Virus record (IMG/VR): IMGVR_UViG_3300025872_000199
Coordinates: 1 to 31,279 of that record
From: a virus
DNA: 31,279 bases
Strand: one strand, 5' to 3'
Both the position numbers and the translations under genes were made by a program. The notes under the pieces were generated by a model. It did not search any database. It worked only from the letters and a program-made list of their open reading frames with translations, and was not told where the DNA came from. Positions 1,151 through 31,278 of this stretch are shown one piece after another; the stretch's first letter is position 1, and the number at the start of each line of letters is the position of its first letter.

Positions 1151-2446
1151 TTAGGTATCAATCGGAGGTTCAGAGAATCGGCAGAATTGCCCATCGTACC
1201 AGAGCTTTACGATGCCGCACTCACCGTCTCTTTGCTTTGCGATGACGATTGAAGCTTCGCCTTTGGCTTCTTTGCGGTCTCGGTCTAGGAGCATCACTAG
1301 ATCAGCGTCTCGTTCGATCTGACCGGAGTCTGCTAGATCAGTCAGCCGAGGTTGTCTGCCTTTGTCTTTCTCGTTCTCGCGGTTCAACTGAGCCAATGAA
1401 AGAAGGGCCACTCCGGTCTGGACTGCAATGTCTTTGAGCTTTCCACTGACCTCTGCGACCTCATAGGTGCGCTTCTCTGACTTCTCCGCTGCTTTGACCT
1501 TCTGGAGATAGTCGATAATGACGAGACGCACTTTGTGCTTACGAACCGCTCTACGGATGTTGGCGGTGATGCTGGCGATGCTTTGAGAGCTTGAGCCATC
1601 CAAGAACCAGAGCGGACTGGATGCGAGCTTTCCAGAAGCTTGAGTCATGGAGCGCATATCGCCTTCTGAAAGGTTTCCGCTCTTAAGGTTATGCATCGGG
1701 ACTCCACCGAGTGAAGCGACGGATCGTCTGAAGATAGCCTCCTTCGACATCTCAAGCGAGATGAAGAGCGTCGGGATCTTGGATTTGACCGCTGCGGCTT
1801 CTGCGATGGCGATTGCGATCGCCGTCTTGCCTATAGATGGACGAGCCGCAATTATCGCAAGCTCGCCATGCTGGAGACCATCGGTCTTGTCGTCGAGCCA
1901 ATGGAAGCCGGTAGTCACTCCTGAGAGCGCACCTTTTCGACTGAACCGCTCCTGCATCGCGTCGATGAACGACCCCGCGACCTGTTTTGAGGTTGAGAGC
2001 GTCTCCTTAGAGACCTCAATGCTGAGTCCTGCTTCGGCATTAGAGACGATTTGATCTGTCGGGAGTGTCAGGACAGCGGACTCGCGTATAAGGCGATCTC
2101 CTGCGAGCCGTAGCTGGCGACGGTGAGCGGCTTCTGAAATGCCTTTGACGTAGTAGGGAAGGTTTGCCGGTGATGGGCAGACTTCCATTGCGCGGTTCCA
2201 GTCCTCGAAAGGGATGGGCTGGTTGCCGTTCAGCTTCTTCCATTCCTTCCCAAGCTCGGGAAGGCTGGGAGCGCGATTCTGTTGTGTCATCGACTTGATG
2301 ACATCGTAAGTGTCTTTCAGCGATTGGGTTTCGATCCAATCGACTCGCACTTCTGCAAGCGCATCAGCGCAAGTGTCCAGAGTTCCAGTCAGACAAGCCC
2401 CAATCAGACCAAACTCGTCTTCTTCAGCAAAGTAAGGGTTGCTCAC
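1151..2446 (-). CDS. dnaB: Replicative DNA helicase, DnaB family
   Basis: 431 aa, the usual length for phage DnaB-type helicases that unwind the fork 5' to 3' as a hexamer. Residues 1-100 form the alpha-helical N-terminal domain. The RecA-like C-terminal domain carries Walker A ARPSIGKT (201-208), a Walker B strand ending in IDYLQ (311-315) and the SLAQLNRE and DLADSGQIERDAD segments typical of DnaB motif 4. The start is GTG at 2446, overlapping the initiator gene stop by four bases (GTGA) behind a GGAGGG Shine-Dalgarno site, so the two genes are translationally coupled. The initiator upstream probably loads it. Confidence 0.95.
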   Translation of the reverse strand: MSNPYFAEEDEFGLIGACLTGTLDTCADALAEVRVDWIETQSLKDTYDVIKSMTQQNRAPSLPELGKEWKKLNGNQPIPFEDWNRAMEVCPSPANLPYYVKGISEAAHRRQLRLAGDRLIRESAVLTLPTDQIVSNAEAGLSIEVSKETLSTSKQVAGSFIDAMQERFSRKGALSGVTTGFHWLDDKTDGLQHGELAIIAARPSIGKTAIAIAIAEAAAVKSKIPTLFISLEMSKEAIFRRSVASLGGVPMHNLKSGNLSEGDMRSMTQASGKLASSPLWFLDGSSSQSIASITANIRRAVRKHKVRLVIIDYLQKVKAAEKSEKRTYEVAEVSGKLKDIAVQTGVALLSLAQLNRENEKDKGRQPRLTDLADSGQIERDADLVMLLDRDRKEAKGEASIVIAKQRDGECGIVKLWYDGQFCRFSEPPIDT

Positions 2447-3192
2447 AGGCTGTCCCTCCAGTCGATTTCCTTTTTGCGCTGCGGTTGTGTTTGAAGCTCA
2501 AGCTGGCTCTTGGGCCTGAAGAGACCTTTCCACCCAGAAGCGATTGAGTGCTGAACAATCACCGGAAACTCTTGTGCTGAGAACTCATTAGCCCATTTGG
2601 TCAGCGATGCGCTAAGTCCCGTCTTCTTGTATCCCTGACGCATCTCGGACTTGTACTGGAGCCAAAGGAGGGCTGCCTGATGGCAGTCCTCATTCTTCAG
2701 CGAGTCTGGCATCTCAAGACCGAAAGCAACCTCCCATGGCGACCTCGGAGCCTTCGTCTTTTCTGTCTTTTCTATCTTATCCATCTTCTCTTCTCTATCG
2801 GTTACCCCGTGGGTTACCCGTGGGATAACCTGATCGTCTTCTGGGTTAACCCGTGGGTTATCTCTGGGTTTCTTTGGCCTCCCCCCTTTCCCGCCGTTTG
2901 ACCAAGAAGCAATGAGGCTTGCATTAACCTCGTGCCATTGGTGAGCAACCAGACATCCGTCTTCTACCTTGCAATATGTCTGGAGCATGGCGTTCCAGAA
3001 GGTGCTGGAGTCACCGTTCCACTTGCAGACGGCGGATAAAATCTCAGCATTCCAGTCTGGGAATCGGCTGGTCTTTCGCGTCTGGCAATGTGACCAAAGC
3101 CTTAGAACGTGAATTGGTGCTGTTTCGGTGTTAAGAAGACGGATTAAAAGTCTCGTCTTCCAGTGGTCCAAGAAGTCAGTTTCTACGATCAT
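2443..3192 (-). CDS. Replication initiator / helicase loader-like protein
   Basis: 249 aa. The N-terminal 95 residues look like a winged-helix initiator domain (aromatic and Leu-rich helices, LRLWSHCQTRK), followed by a low-complexity linker with GGKGGRPKKPRDNP and a Lys/Glu stretch (about 130-155), then a helical C-terminal domain (WLQYKSEMRQGYKKTG...SLTKWANEF) as in DnaD/DnaT-type phage replisome organisers. It sits directly upstream of dnaB and overlaps it by four bases. The linker-coding DNA holds iteron-like repeats (2800-2862), the arrangement of lambda O. Function is inferred from this context; sequence identity to O is not visible. The start codon is ATG at 3192, with no clear Shine-Dalgarno site. 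Confidence 0.8.
   Translation of the reverse strand: MIVETDFLDHWKTRLLIRLLNTETAPIHVLRLWSHCQTRKTSRFPDWNAEILSAVCKWNGDSSTFWNAMLQTYCKVEDGCLVAHQWHEVNASLIASWSNGGKGGRPKKPRDNPRVNPEDDQVIPRVTHGVTDREEKMDKIEKTEKTKAPRSPWEVAFGLEMPDSLKNEDCHQAALLWLQYKSEMRQGYKKTGLSASLTKWANEFSAQEFPVIVQHSIASGWKGLFRPKSQLELQTQPQRKKEIDWRDSL
2800..2862. repeat. Iteron-like repeats inside the initiator gene (candidate replication origin)
   Basis: Three related units share the core ACCCGTGGG/ACCCCGTGGG: GGTTACCCCGTGGGTTA (2800-2816), GGTTACCCGTGGGATAACC (2812-2830) and GGTTAACCCGTGGGTTATC (2844-2862). The first two overlap with a 12-bp step and the third is 32 bp further on. A fourth, partial TCTGGGTT follows. They encode the linker of the initiator protein, the same location as the lambda origin within gene O. 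Confidence 0.6.
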
Positions 3193-8322: not shown

Positions 8323-8753
8323 CGCGTGTATCCCTCCAGTCGGGCCGGTGAATAGGACGGACTCTTTACGATCTTGCCGTCACTCCTGCGGACAATGTGG
8401 CGGTTGTCCCCAACTCGGACAGACCGGCAGTCAGCGGGGATGGAGTCGATCTCGTCGTCGCTCCAACACTTCGACATATTGCTTCGGTGGATTTCGCAGA
8501 ATGCTGCATCGACTTGATGCGGACTGAATCCAGCAGCCAATGCGGCTCCATAGACGACGTAGAGCAAGTCCCCAACAGCGTCGAGATACTCAACCTTATC
8601 GGTGGCTTCGTTGAGTTCTTGGGCTTCCTCGTCAATCAGTCGGTACCTGAGATTTTGCGTCACCGGATCGGGCATGACTGGCGATGACGGGACGTATTGC
8701 TGAAACGTCCGCATGAACTCGCGGACTAGTTCCATTGGGTGAGTCTGGTTCAT
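8319..8753 (-). CDS. MazG/HisE-like NTP pyrophosphohydrolase
   Basis: 144 aa from ATG 8753, chosen for the ATGA overlap with the exonuclease stop (the frame is open to 8798). RLIDEEAQELNEA (38-50) followed by EYLDAVGDLLYVVYGAA (55-71) is the E-x-x-E ... D-x-x-x-D metal-binding pattern of the all-alpha NTP-PPase superfamily. These enzymes hydrolyse NTPs/dNTPs to monophosphates; in phages they may tune nucleotide pools or (p)ppGpp-related signals. A C-terminal extension (about 95-144) with beta-hairpin character (RSVRVGDNRHIVRRSDGKIV) is of unknown purpose. Confidence 0.85.
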   Translation of the reverse strand: MNQTHPMELVREFMRTFQQYVPSSPVMPDPVTQNLRYRLIDEEAQELNEATDKVEYLDAVGDLLYVVYGAALAAGFSPHQVDAAFCEIHRSNMSKCWSDDEIDSIPADCRSVRVGDNRHIVRRSDGKIVKSPSYSPARLEGYTR

Positions 8754-9853
8754 TTGATTCGAGTCAGTGTGGGTTGAGAGGCTTTCGATTCGATGCATCC
8801 GTCGAGCAGAGCCGTAAGCTTTGCGTCGAGTTCCTTTCCTTTGGTCTCGGTCGCCACTTTCAACGCATCTTTGAGCTTCGTCTTGTTGATTGTGATGGCT
8901 GGCATGATGTCCTCGTAAGTACCACCACTTTCGATGAATCGAAGGTAAACGGTCTCGGTGTCTTTGATGGTCTCACGCACCGCACCCTCCTTCAGCGTCC
9001 ATCCTTCGATTGAGTCGCCTTCCGCAAGCCTCCGTCGCGCTTCAGCGCGGCAAGCCTCAATGACAGCCTCCGCTTGTGCTGCACGCTCCAAGAACGCTCC
9101 AAGCGTCTGGTTCGTCAGTGTGGCGGCTATAGCGTCTGGCGTTATACCTTCTGGCGTGTTGGTCAATGGACCGGCTACGGCCAAATCTCGCGCTTCTGGG
9201 CAGAACGGTTTCCCTTTGCAATACTTGCAAGCGGACTCTGAGGGAGTGCGCGGATGTCCAAGCTTCTGAATCTGCTCCATCAAGTCGGCAGATTCAGCGA
9301 TTGCGCTGCGGATATCCGCTGACTCGTAGACAGCGACACTCGGCAGTCCTGCAAGAGGTTGCACAATTGCCACAGTGATGCGGTCGAAGGTGAAACCAAA
9401 GTTCTCGTCCAGAAGAGCGACCAAGCACCGCAACTGAAGGTTCTCGGCAGCGTTCTCGACCGCACCGCGACCGGACTTGTAGTCGATAATGAGACCAGCG
9501 GAGCCGACAACGTAGATCACGTCTGGCTTTCCGCTCCACAGCTTGACCCCACGATCGTCGATGGACCACAGACGTTTCTCGCGCCATACATTCGGCTCTT
9601 CGGTGGATTGAGGGAACGTCGCTTTAACCAATTCTAGTTCCTGCTCGCGGCAACGGTCAATCGTCCACGTCTCGTCTGAGGTCAGGTTCTCCACCGGCTC
9701 CATCGCAAGAGCGGCGTGGATGCGGTTTCCAATGGTCGCATCATTCGTCGATGCACCTTCTGCGATCTGCTTCTCAAGCTGCCAGCTACCGAGACAAGCA
9801 GCGTACCGGCTCGCAGACGATGCGGACGGAAGACCTAAGCGTTCGTCACTCAT
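8750..9853 (-). CDS. PD-(D/E)XK exonuclease with four-cysteine (Fe-S type) motif
   Basis: 367 aa. SGKPDVIYVVGSAGLIIDYKSG supplies the nuclease acids D111 and D124-x-K126. Cys20 near the N terminus and the cluster C209-x2-C212-x5-C218 (CKYCKGKPFC) match the split four-Cys pattern that holds an iron-sulfur cluster in AddB/Cas4-type nucleases. A helical C-terminal part (270-367) follows. It overlaps the Bet gene by 8 bp, so the pair likely works as a resection/annealing recombinase like lambda Red. Start ATG 9853 with AAGGAG upstream. Confidence 0.88.
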   Translation of the reverse strand: MSDERLGLPSASSASRYAACLGSWQLEKQIAEGASTNDATIGNRIHAALAMEPVENLTSDETWTIDRCREQELELVKATFPQSTEEPNVWREKRLWSIDDRGVKLWSGKPDVIYVVGSAGLIIDYKSGRGAVENAAENLQLRCLVALLDENFGFTFDRITVAIVQPLAGLPSVAVYESADIRSAIAESADLMEQIQKLGHPRTPSESACKYCKGKPFCPEARDLAVAGPLTNTPEGITPDAIAATLTNQTLGAFLERAAQAEAVIEACRAEARRRLAEGDSIEGWTLKEGAVRETIKDTETVYLRFIESGGTYEDIMPAITINKTKLKDALKVATETKGKELDAKLTALLDGCIESKASQPTLTRIK

Positions 9854-10508
9854 TGGTCGCTCCTTCCTCTGTCACGGGTTGAGCGTTGGTCTCGACACTT
9901 ACACTCGGGATGACAACCGGAGGCTCGACAGTCGGCTCCAACTTGCTGCGGAAGATGGGCCGAGACGGAGTGACGTTGAGCGCGACTTGCGGGACAGCTT
10001 CTTCGTCGTCGCTGATTCCAGAGAACCCAAACGCAATGCGAGCGCATTGGATGAGAGCTTTGTGTCGAAGCATTCGACGAGGGTTGACCTTCCACGGCTC
10101 GGTGTTGCGTGAACATTCCGAGAAATACTCGGTGACCTCCACCGGATGGGCGCGATCTTTGACGTGGATGGTAGCGGTTACGCTGAACGGCTTGCCGTCT
10201 TTGTCTTCCGTCGTGAACTGGATGCCATCGAAGCTCGGATGGCTGTTCATCATCTTGATCCAGCCATCAACGCTGACCACCGGCTGGATGCCGCCATTGC
10301 GAGCGGGAAAGGCGTAGATCTCTCGCGTGAACGGGTTCAACCCGTACTGGTTAGCGGTGACGACGAAGCTGAGAAGCTCTTCGTTGGACGCTTTGGGCAT
10401 CAACGTAGCCTTCAGCGTCTCCAGCAAACGGGCTGGCTCAACGTTGAATTTGCTCGCCATGATTGCGAGCGCGGACTGCTTCTGACTTGGGATCAACTCT
10501 TGTTTCAT
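9846..10508 (-). CDS. bet: Bet/RecT-family single-strand annealing protein
   Basis: 220 aa from ATG 10508; a longer frame to 10619 overlaps the upstream gene and is not needed. The family signature NQYGLNPFTREIYAFPARNG (53-72), then PVVSVDGWIKMMNSHPSFDG, is clear and is closer to lambda Bet than to RecT in wording. It anneals complementary single strands exposed by the exonuclease encoded next. The C-terminal 40 residues (after GISDDEEAVPQ) are Pro/Val-rich and probably disordered. Confidence 0.93.
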   Translation of the reverse strand: MKQELIPSQKQSALAIMASKFNVEPARLLETLKATLMPKASNEELLSFVVTANQYGLNPFTREIYAFPARNGGIQPVVSVDGWIKMMNSHPSFDGIQFTTEDKDGKPFSVTATIHVKDRAHPVEVTEYFSECSRNTEPWKVNPRRMLRHKALIQCARIAFGFSGISDDEEAVPQVALNVTPSRPIFRSKLEPTVEPPVVIPSVSVETNAQPVTEEGATNE

Positions 10509-10647
10509 AGGTCTTCTTTGGCCTCCCACCGCGCTTTCCATTTGCGCGAGCAGTTTTGGCCTTTGCCGGTGAAGACTTCCGTCCCATCTCTTGAGCGATC
10601 TCGCGCAAGCTAACGGCAAAAATATGCTGACAGGACGGACATTTCAT
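10438..10647 (-). CDS. Small basic protein with CPxC motif, first gene of the recombination operon
   Basis: 69 aa starting MKCPSCQHIFAV; a CPSC pair (C3, C6) is followed by GRKSSPAKAKTARANGKRGGRPKK, a strongly basic stretch common in small phage proteins. It overlaps the Bet start by 71 bp in another frame. It directly follows the operator-like palindrome at 10665, so it may be the first product of this transcription unit. DNA or RNA binding is likely from charge; function unknown. Confidence 0.65.
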   Translation of the reverse strand: MKCPSCQHIFAVSLREIAQEMGRKSSPAKAKTARANGKRGGRPKKTYETRVDPKSEAVRARNHGEQIQR

Positions 10648-16408: not shown

Positions 16409-16960
16409 TTATACCTCTTGTTGGCTCTGCCAAACAGCCTCACTTCTATCGTCCCACAGTTGAACGTGTCCCATCATCTCGGCGTGAGCTAGAATCAGCC
16501 GCTCCGCATCACCAAGAGGCATTTGTACCGCATCGTCAGGAGCAATGCCGATGTTGAGACATCCAACCAAGACTCGCTCGGGCCATGGCATTGCAGGAGC
16601 TTTAGACTTGGTTCCAGCTTCAATCAAGACCTCTGGTGCTGTTGATTGATCTTTCAGCCAAACGTGGAACTTGTCGGATTCAGCCAGCAAGTTGAGCTTT
16701 GCGATTCGCTTTCCCCACAACCACAGAACAAGACCGCTCCACCGAGACTTGATGGAGCGGATAGATTCCAGCGGAGACTGTGAGCAAACGGTCACAGCCT
16801 CCACCAGATCGGTTGGCGCGATCTCTCCGCCCATGACAAACGGAGAGCGCAACCTTTGCAGCACGATGGCGTGTCCTACGGTGTAGGGAACAAGTCGAAC
16901 CCCAAGCACAACAGGTGCTTGAGGTCCAGTCTCTGACAGGATCTTTGCAAGATCGGCCAC
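16409..16960 (-). CDS. Tail assembly chaperone candidate
   Basis: 183 aa between the major tail protein and the tape measure, the usual slot for the tail assembly chaperone. Opens with a GTG at 16960. Largely helical, with Trp-rich patches (WSGLVLWLWGKRI). In many siphoviruses this gene is extended by a -1 frameshift; here the tape measure begins after the stop and no extended overlapping frame is seen, so a single product is likely. The assignment rests on position. Confidence 0.6.
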   Translation of the reverse strand: MADLAKILSETGPQAPVVLGVRLVPYTVGHAIVLQRLRSPFVMGGEIAPTDLVEAVTVCSQSPLESIRSIKSRWSGLVLWLWGKRIAKLNLLAESDKFHVWLKDQSTAPEVLIEAGTKSKAPAMPWPERVLVGCLNIGIAPDDAVQMPLGDAERLILAHAEMMGHVQLWDDRSEAVWQSQQEV

Positions 16961-29245: not shown

Positions 29246-30393
29246 GCCTTTTCAAGAACCGCCTTCTTGCCGGTGAAGTCTTCCCAACGCTTTACGATCA
29301 CGTCGCAATACTTGGGATCAAGCTCCATGACAAAAGCTTTTCGTTTCATTTTTTCACATCCAATCAACGTACTTCCGCTACCACCAAACAAATCGAGTAT
29401 GTTTTTGGCGTTTCTGTGGTTTGAAATGGCGCGTTCAGACAGCTCAACTGGCTTTTGGGTTGGATGAACATAGTTTATATCCTTTTTGACATTCCAAAGA
29501 TCGGACTCGTCTTTTATATCTGAATCAATGTCTCCATTGAATAGACAGAATTCATGTTGGTGCCGATAATTGTTTCCCATTCCAAACACGTTTTTTGCCC
29601 AAACAATACAAGCTTTGTATTCAAGTTCTCGCTGCAAAGTTGCATAGAACTTCCAATTGCACCAGATGTAATAAGCTGGAGGATTAATTGCCTTAATTGT
29701 TCTTAACACTTCTCCAATAAATTGATCAAAATCTTCTTTTGTAAGATTGTCATTTGCAATAACATCGTGCTTTCCTGATCTCCCATTAAATGCCACATTA
29801 TACGGAGGATCGGTGAATACCAAGTCCACTTTATTTCCATTCATCAATCTGATCACAGCATCGATGCTCGTACTGTCACCGCACATCAGCCGGTGATTCC
29901 CAAGAATCCAAACATCTCCAAGCTTTGTGATCGGCTCGACTGGAACTTCTGGAGTCTGGTCTGGATCGGTTTCTCCTTCGACAACTTCTGGTTCAAGCAA
30001 CTCAGCAAGCTCATCATCCGAGAATCCGGTGAGACCCATGTCAAAACCATCTTCCTGCAAAGACTCCAGTTCAGACCGCAACATCTGGTCGTCCCATCCA
30101 GCATTGAGAGCCAGCTTGTTATCGGCAATGACGTAGGCTCGGACCTGAGATGGAGTTAGGTGTCCGAGTCTGATGCATGGAACTGTTTCAAGCCCAAGCT
30201 TCTTTGCCGCCATAACTCGACCGTGACCGGCAATGATTGTTCCATTTGCATCAATCAAGACTGGATTGGTGAATCCAAACTCTCTGATGGAACCGGCAAT
30301 CTGCGAGACTTGCTCGTCAGAATGCGTTCTGGAGTTGCGAGCATAAGGAATCAGCGTTGAGACCGAGACCTGTTCGATTTGGTGTTGTGTCAT
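29242..30393 (-). CDS. ParB-domain / DNA methyltransferase fusion
   Basis: 383 aa from ATG 30393 (ATGA overlap with TerS; a TTG two codons upstream is ignored). Residues 5-95 are a ParB/Srx-like domain (IPYARNSRTHSDEQVSQIAGS, then IIAGHGRVMAAKKLG 53-67). Residues 155-380 are an N4-cytosine/N6-adenine methyltransferase with TDPPYNV (194-200) before DLFGGSGSTLIG (334-345), the beta-class motif order, and an HPTQKP motif (310-315). Such fusions protect phage DNA from restriction. Its second half is visibly AT-richer than the neighbours. Confidence 0.93.
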   Translation of the reverse strand: MTQHQIEQVSVSTLIPYARNSRTHSDEQVSQIAGSIREFGFTNPVLIDANGTIIAGHGRVMAAKKLGLETVPCIRLGHLTPSQVRAYVIADNKLALNAGWDDQMLRSELESLQEDGFDMGLTGFSDDELAELLEPEVVEGETDPDQTPEVPVEPITKLGDVWILGNHRLMCGDSTSIDAVIRLMNGNKVDLVFTDPPYNVAFNGRSGKHDVIANDNLTKEDFDQFIGEVLRTIKAINPPAYYIWCNWKFYATLQRELEYKACIVWAKNVFGMGNNYRHQHEFCLFNGDIDSDIKDESDLWNVKKDINYVHPTQKPVELSERAISNHRNAKNILDLFGGSGSTLIGCEKMKRKAFVMELDPKYCDVIVKRWEDFTGKKAVLEKA

Positions 30394-31254: not shown

Positions 31255-31276
31255 GATGATCGGCCCCGCGCGATCA
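31244..31276. repeat. 9-bp inverted repeat at the terminus
   Basis: TGATCGCGC (31244-31252) and GCGCGATCA (31268-31276) are perfect inverted arms separated by 15 nt; the right arm belongs to the terminal direct repeat. This symmetry could be a terminase or repressor binding site. Confidence 0.6.
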
Positions 31277-31278
31277 CC
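31265..31278. repeat. Terminal direct repeat, right copy (cos end or circular junction)
   Basis: Second copy of the 14-bp repeat at 1-14. The last base of the window (A, 31279) does not match position 15 (T), so the identity stops at exactly 14 bp. The packaging genes begin about 50 bp away, as expected for a cos site next to the small terminase gene. Confidence 0.7.

Follow-up and report, generated by a model that had tools for sequence, protein, structure and literature searches.

Introduction

In lambda-type phages, initiator-binding repeats directly followed by an AT-rich unwinding tract lie within the central part of the initiator gene (PMC7466680; PMC3349717). Inside gene O, the origin of lambda itself comprises four iterons of 18 bp each, to which an AT-rich sequence of 38 bp is attached (PMC3349717), and the number of iterons differs between phages, with four in lambda and six in Stx phages, the latter adding 13 amino acids to the protein (PMC7466680). 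In SPP1, oriL combines direct repeats within gene 38, which encodes the origin-binding protein, with an AT-rich DNA unwinding element, and this phage has its own DnaB-family helicase, gp40 (PMC6316719).

Here, we analyzed a 31,279-bp phage record from IMG/VR, referred to at its full length as the window, in which the minus strand carries nearly all clear genes. Within its replication initiator gene we describe a repeat array, and we propose, with a probability of roughly 0.85, that the DNA coding for the initiator's linker is the replication origin of the phage, at which the N-terminal domain of the initiator would bind the iterons, a neighboring tract would open, and the C-terminal module would recruit DnaB. 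Our searches of the open-licence literature of PubMed Central, a collection outside which most subscription papers fall, turned up no description of this origin. All features of the initiator and helicase genes described below are on the minus strand, and coordinates are those of the window.

Results

Replication genes of the window

The replication initiator gene (2443 to 3192) was assigned from its open reading frame of 249 amino acids, stop included, from PHROG matches, and from about 100 relatives. It lies directly upstream of a DnaB-type replicative helicase gene (1151 to 2446; Pfam DnaB_C, E=3e-75; PHROG 19, E=3e-82), which overlaps the end of the initiator gene by 4 bases. The initiator has three parts in order: an N-terminal domain with a modelled winged-helix fold, a linker, and a C-terminal module. 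Amino acids 4 to 150 matched PHROG 9474, "replication initiation protein" (E=3e-7), and the C-terminal half resembled PHROG 678, "replication initiation O-like", weakly over amino acids 131 to 245 (E=4e-4). Relatives were gathered as a first group of 20, which were 96 to 49% identical over their best segment, and then some 80 more. Three of them belong to Verrucomicrobiota/Kiritimatiellota-type genomes (a Pontiellaceae MAG, a Verrucomicrobia MAG, and Pontiella sulfatireligans), and the hosts of this uncultured phage family are probably Verrucomicrobiota-type bacteria.

The N-terminal part of the initiator matched PHROG 9474 in the window protein and in all 10 of the relatives scanned. Coverage was incomplete and E values were moderate (about 5e-6 to 4e-10) in all but relative L087, which matched over almost its full length (E=1e-30); neither iterons nor an origin are mentioned in the entry as shown. 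The initiator had been noted at the outset to look different from lambda O, and this was borne out, as the best BLASTP comparison with lambda O gave E=1.1 and hhalign a probability of 0.1. Likeness to O-type proteins is limited to the weak PHROG 678 match in the C-terminal half.

Elsewhere in the record, an exonuclease-like gene (8750 to 9853; PHROG 69) adjoins a gene for a Bet-like single-stranded DNA annealing protein (9846 to 10619; PHROG 252), so that positions 8750 to 10619 hold a lambda-Red-like pair. The sequence CCCGCGCGATCACC is present at both ends of the record (1 to 14 and 31265 to 31278) and may be a short end repeat or a chance occurrence.

An iteron array in the linker DNA

The array spans 2800 to 2868 and was delimited by repeat pattern matches, core spacing, and frozen synonymous codons in 12 relatives. 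The initial annotation of this DNA had described three copies of one unit. Two are exact (GGTTACCCCGTGGG at 2800 to 2813 and GGTTAACCCGTGGG at 2844 to 2857), whereas the middle copy (2811/2812 to 2824) is one base shorter, and a better description of the unit, read on the coding strand, is a set of four palindromic cores resembling GGTTAACC plus a degenerate fifth. The cores are GGTTAACC (2844 to 2851), GGTTATCC (2823 to 2830), and two copies of GGGTAACC (2812 to 2819 and 2800 to 2807), with the degenerate core AGATAACC at 2856 to 2863. Two groups of cores are separated by a spacer (2831 to 2843) that is constant in length in most relatives and variable in sequence. As had been proposed, the repeats code for the initiator's own linker; the whole array lies inside the open reading frame at 2443 to 3192 and encodes the linker peptide DNPRVNPEDDQVIPRVTHGVTD.

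With up to 3 mismatches allowed, the unit pattern matched the window 13 times against an expectation of 4.6 +/- 1.9, a number reached in 0 of 100 shuffles, and every match with up to 2 mismatches fell at 2800 to 2857. An independent repeat search returned a 25-nt direct repeat (2800 to 2824 and 2844 to 2868) at 84%. Core centers in the window are 11, 11.5 to 12, or 21 bp apart; across the relatives they are 10.5 to 12 or 20 to 23 bp apart, which is about one or two helical turns, and some of these spacings are not multiples of three. The density of cores is 60.5 per kb in the linkers and 0.49 per kb outside the linkers of these genes.

Loss of the repeats in close relatives with a conserved initiator had been named beforehand as an outcome that would speak against the array, and the repeats were kept in all 20 first-round relatives. 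The cores also persist in most of the 45 distinct linkers. Their copy number varies among relatives and is raised in L018, L019/L030, and L068 to L080, while the array is degenerate in divergent members L082, L093, and L094 and distant members carry altered repeats (GGTAACCCAACGGTAACC in L115 and a GGAACC type in L122). A strict array pattern run over whole relative records missed even the array of the window, and its result is therefore uninformative. The repeats are real and not an accident of protein sequence.

Codon freezing and the use of three reading frames

Synonymous variation was examined by aligning the codons of 12 divergent members; in this alignment, the linker corresponds to columns 107 to 143 (window residues 107 to 134). 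Among pairs with the same residue, different codons were used in 5% of cases in the linker vs 38% in the N-terminal domain. Counted by residue-invariant columns, 1 of 17 varied in codon in the linker compared with 59 of 66 in the N-terminal domain (Fisher p=7e-11, a nominal value because the relatives share ancestry); the real evidence is the contrast in codons between adjacent parts of the same genes. The freeze begins sharply at codon 107 and is interrupted by a 4-codon spacer (columns 118 to 121), which varies freely in both residue and codon (0.28 codon difference) although its flanks do not. When five neighboring genes were included in the comparison, the windows of lowest synonymous variation were those of the linker.

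We also recorded the position within the codon at which GGT(T)WACC starts in the 45 distinct linkers. It starts at codon position 3 in 108 cases (giving the peptides VNP, VTH, and VTD), at position 1 in 33 (GNP and GYP), and at position 2 in 11 (GLP). Because all three frames are used to read one DNA unit, it is the DNA and not the peptide that is conserved. Selection on the peptide cannot explain this three-frame use, and selection on the DNA can.

A purine-rich tract beside the array

A stretch beginning with GATAGAGAAGAGAAG directly follows the last core and is the most purine/pyrimidine-biased of the 31-kb record. Judged by stability and purine bias, the purine-rich, easily melted tract GATAGAGAAGAGAAGATGGATAAGATAGAAAAGACAGAAAA (2759 to 2799) is a putative DNA unwinding element, and it ranks as the fifth least stable distinct 40-mer of the record. 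The purine tract was the site of the gene's least stable 40-mer in every one of the 27 genes first examined (that of the window and those of 26 relatives). Among 62 distinct genes it lay away from the tract only in L048, L078, L081, and L122, a count of four made by inspection of the listing; the adjacency rule of our script scored 41 of 62 as adjacent and flagged 21 of 62, with most flags arising where the loose core pattern matched C-terminal sequence. The purine fraction of the least stable 40-mer averaged 0.81 in the 62-gene set.

The lambda O gene, with its annotated iterons, was scored by the same script and gave the same order of iterons and then least stable 40-mer. Its iterons occupy CDS positions 349 to 433 and its least stable 40-mer 437 to 476, which is 4 bp after iteron 4 and has a purine fraction of 0.70; in the window gene, the cores end at CDS position 393 and the least stable 40-mer spans 395 to 434. 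The resemblance to the lambda layout that had been suggested at the start holds, with repeats in the initiator linker, an easily melted purine tract immediately downstream, and the helicase gene next.

The initial annotation had also predicted a GC-skew minimum at 2.8 kb, which did not appear, as the cumulative minimum fell at 30,099 and the detrended minimum at 16,743. Skew is a poor test of an origin here because the phage is only 31 kb long and has nearly all of its genes on one strand.

Initiator domains and exchange of C-terminal modules

The N-terminal domain (amino acids 1 to 108; 2869 to 3192) is predicted to be a winged-helix DNA-binding domain from an AlphaFold model built with 23 sequences (pLDDT 82.7, pTM 0.72). 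Its elements follow the order H-H-E-H-H-E-E-H, which is that of winged helices and supports a DNA-binding role for the modelled domain, short of proof. The closest solved structures were MarR/CRP-type winged helices and the initiator chains 4pql/4pt7, all at modest Z values of 5 to 6. Foldseek alone, searched with this domain, returned nothing at E<=0.001 (its matches had E>0.2), and comparisons with Pfam and PDB sequences gave no convincing homology. A model of the full-length protein from 8 sequences was poor (pLDDT 52).

The C-terminal module (2446 to 2743) is swapped among relatives, with at least three unrelated types found after near-identical linkers. These are a PHROG 18589/678 type, a PHROG 15768 type, and an LRSRINKW... 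type that had no match; a further type, in L087, matches primosomal and DnaD-like profiles. In the pairs L069/L071 and L076/L077, the same or nearly the same linker is followed by different C termini, which places the swap point just after the purine tract. Such swaps fit a protein in which a DNA-binding half is tied to its own sites and the other half, which would face the helicase, is exchangeable. Relative L006 joins an N-terminal domain and linker of the window type to an L007-type C terminus, and its DnaB is only 63% identical to that of the window, a mosaic that indicates modular exchange within the replication operon. L007 and L013 have similar DnaBs and different C termini, and among L006, L007, and L013 we saw no obvious tracking of C-terminal type with DnaB lineage.

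A second codon-frozen element in dnaB

A codon-frozen stretch of dnaB (codons 121 to 144) provides a second frozen element, placed at 2024 to 2086, the core of which is GATCAAATCGTC (2045 to 2056; codons GAT CAA ATC GTC). Across 51 dnaB genes, dereplicated and with an amino acid identity of at least 55%, this core showed zero synonymous differences. In the 12-codon window around it 14% of codons differed, against 49% over the gene, which puts this stretch about 3.9 standard deviations under the window mean. Its sequence differs from that of the iterons, a search for it in the window with up to 2 mismatches found no over-representation, and the element is lost in divergent clades. An origin in two parts, in which the initiator-gene array would work together with GATCAAATCGTC about 0.75 kb away, is a speculative and rather unlikely extension, and we make no claim that the dnaB element belongs to the origin. 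If it were true, each of the two genes of the replication operon would have, in coding sequence between domains, a signal that acts in cis on replication.

Discussion

The layout of this locus suggests how replication of the phage could begin. The N-terminal domain, a predicted winged helix, would bind the palindromic GGTTAACC-type iterons, whose spacing of one or two turns would set them on one face of the helix. The bound initiators may then strain and open the adjacent purine-rich tract, and the exchangeable C-terminal module would recruit or load the phage DnaB for theta replication. If the initiator binds its own gene in this way, the origin and the DNA-binding domain would for that reason travel as one recombination unit.

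Several other explanations of the repeats were weighed against this proposal. They could be nothing more than a low-complexity protein linker (N-P-x-V with charged E/K residues), with repetition in the DNA simply following repetition in the peptide. The encoded peptide is indeed rich in proline and charge, and flexible repetitive linkers are common between the domains of replication proteins. Synonymous sites are frozen, however, one DNA unit encodes different peptides in three frames, and the 11-bp spacings do not fit whole numbers of codons. This codon and frame evidence largely refutes a pure protein linker, which is highly improbable. A joint for recombination, kept identical by homologous swapping of C-terminal modules, would seem to be suggested by the C-terminal types that switch right after the tract while the linkers stay near-identical, as in L069/L071 and L076/L077. 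From such swapping one would not expect the cores to be retained on both sides of a variable spacer, the freeze to start abruptly at codon 107, or the unit to survive changes of frame, and there is little chance that swapping explains the frozen linker; recombination at the linker may act in addition to origin function.

Selection on the nucleic acid could also reflect a role other than replication. One such role would be in RNA, with the palindromes pairing as hairpins in the mRNA of the initiator and controlling how dnaB is translated or transcribed. Compared with shuffled sequences, the coding strand has a better fold (z -2.6), and a consensus fold with 14 pairs was obtained, but both sides changed in only 1 of the 14, which is almost no covariation, in columns so nearly invariant that they leave little room for it. 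An RNA element would not be expected to show spacing by helical turns or to adjoin a tract of low stability, and we saw no terminator- or promoter-like site at the array; we regard this role as very unlikely. Another protein might instead use the array as an operator or partition-like site, or the initiator might act there only as a repressor, in which case there would be no origin here. Winged-helix domains are common in repressors, and iteron-binding initiators often autoregulate. Against this, the array sits in mid-gene with no promoter-like site nearby, and the adjacent melting tract and helicase gene fit an origin better, which leaves a purely regulatory site with only a slim chance of being correct.

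Read as an origin nested in its initiator gene, the locus can be set beside the described systems. Repeat copy number varies between phages in this family as it does between lambda and the Stx phages. Lambda iterons are 18 bp long with starts 20 to 24 bp apart, whereas the cores of the window are 7 to 8 bp long and lie one or two turns apart. The window phage encodes its own DnaB, in contrast to lambda, whose P protein engages the DnaB of the host (PMC3640518). In this respect, and in having repeats inside the initiator gene beside an unwinding tract, it resembles SPP1 with its oriL, as compared by layout. The SPP1 system also includes oriR as another origin and gp39 as a loader of its own (PMC6316719), to which we encountered no counterpart here. 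On the sequence evidence, the locus is very probably a theta-type origin of the nested layout known from lambda and SPP1 in a new initiator family with no detectable sequence relation to lambda O.

These results provide a predicted origin, initiator, and binding site for uncultured phages, for whose replication annotation is otherwise the only source of information. They indicate that the lambda-style placement of an origin within its initiator gene has arisen, or has been kept, in proteins for which no sequence relation to lambda O could be detected. Codon freezing, together with the reading of a single DNA unit in three frames, offers a simple computational test for nested origins in other phage initiators.
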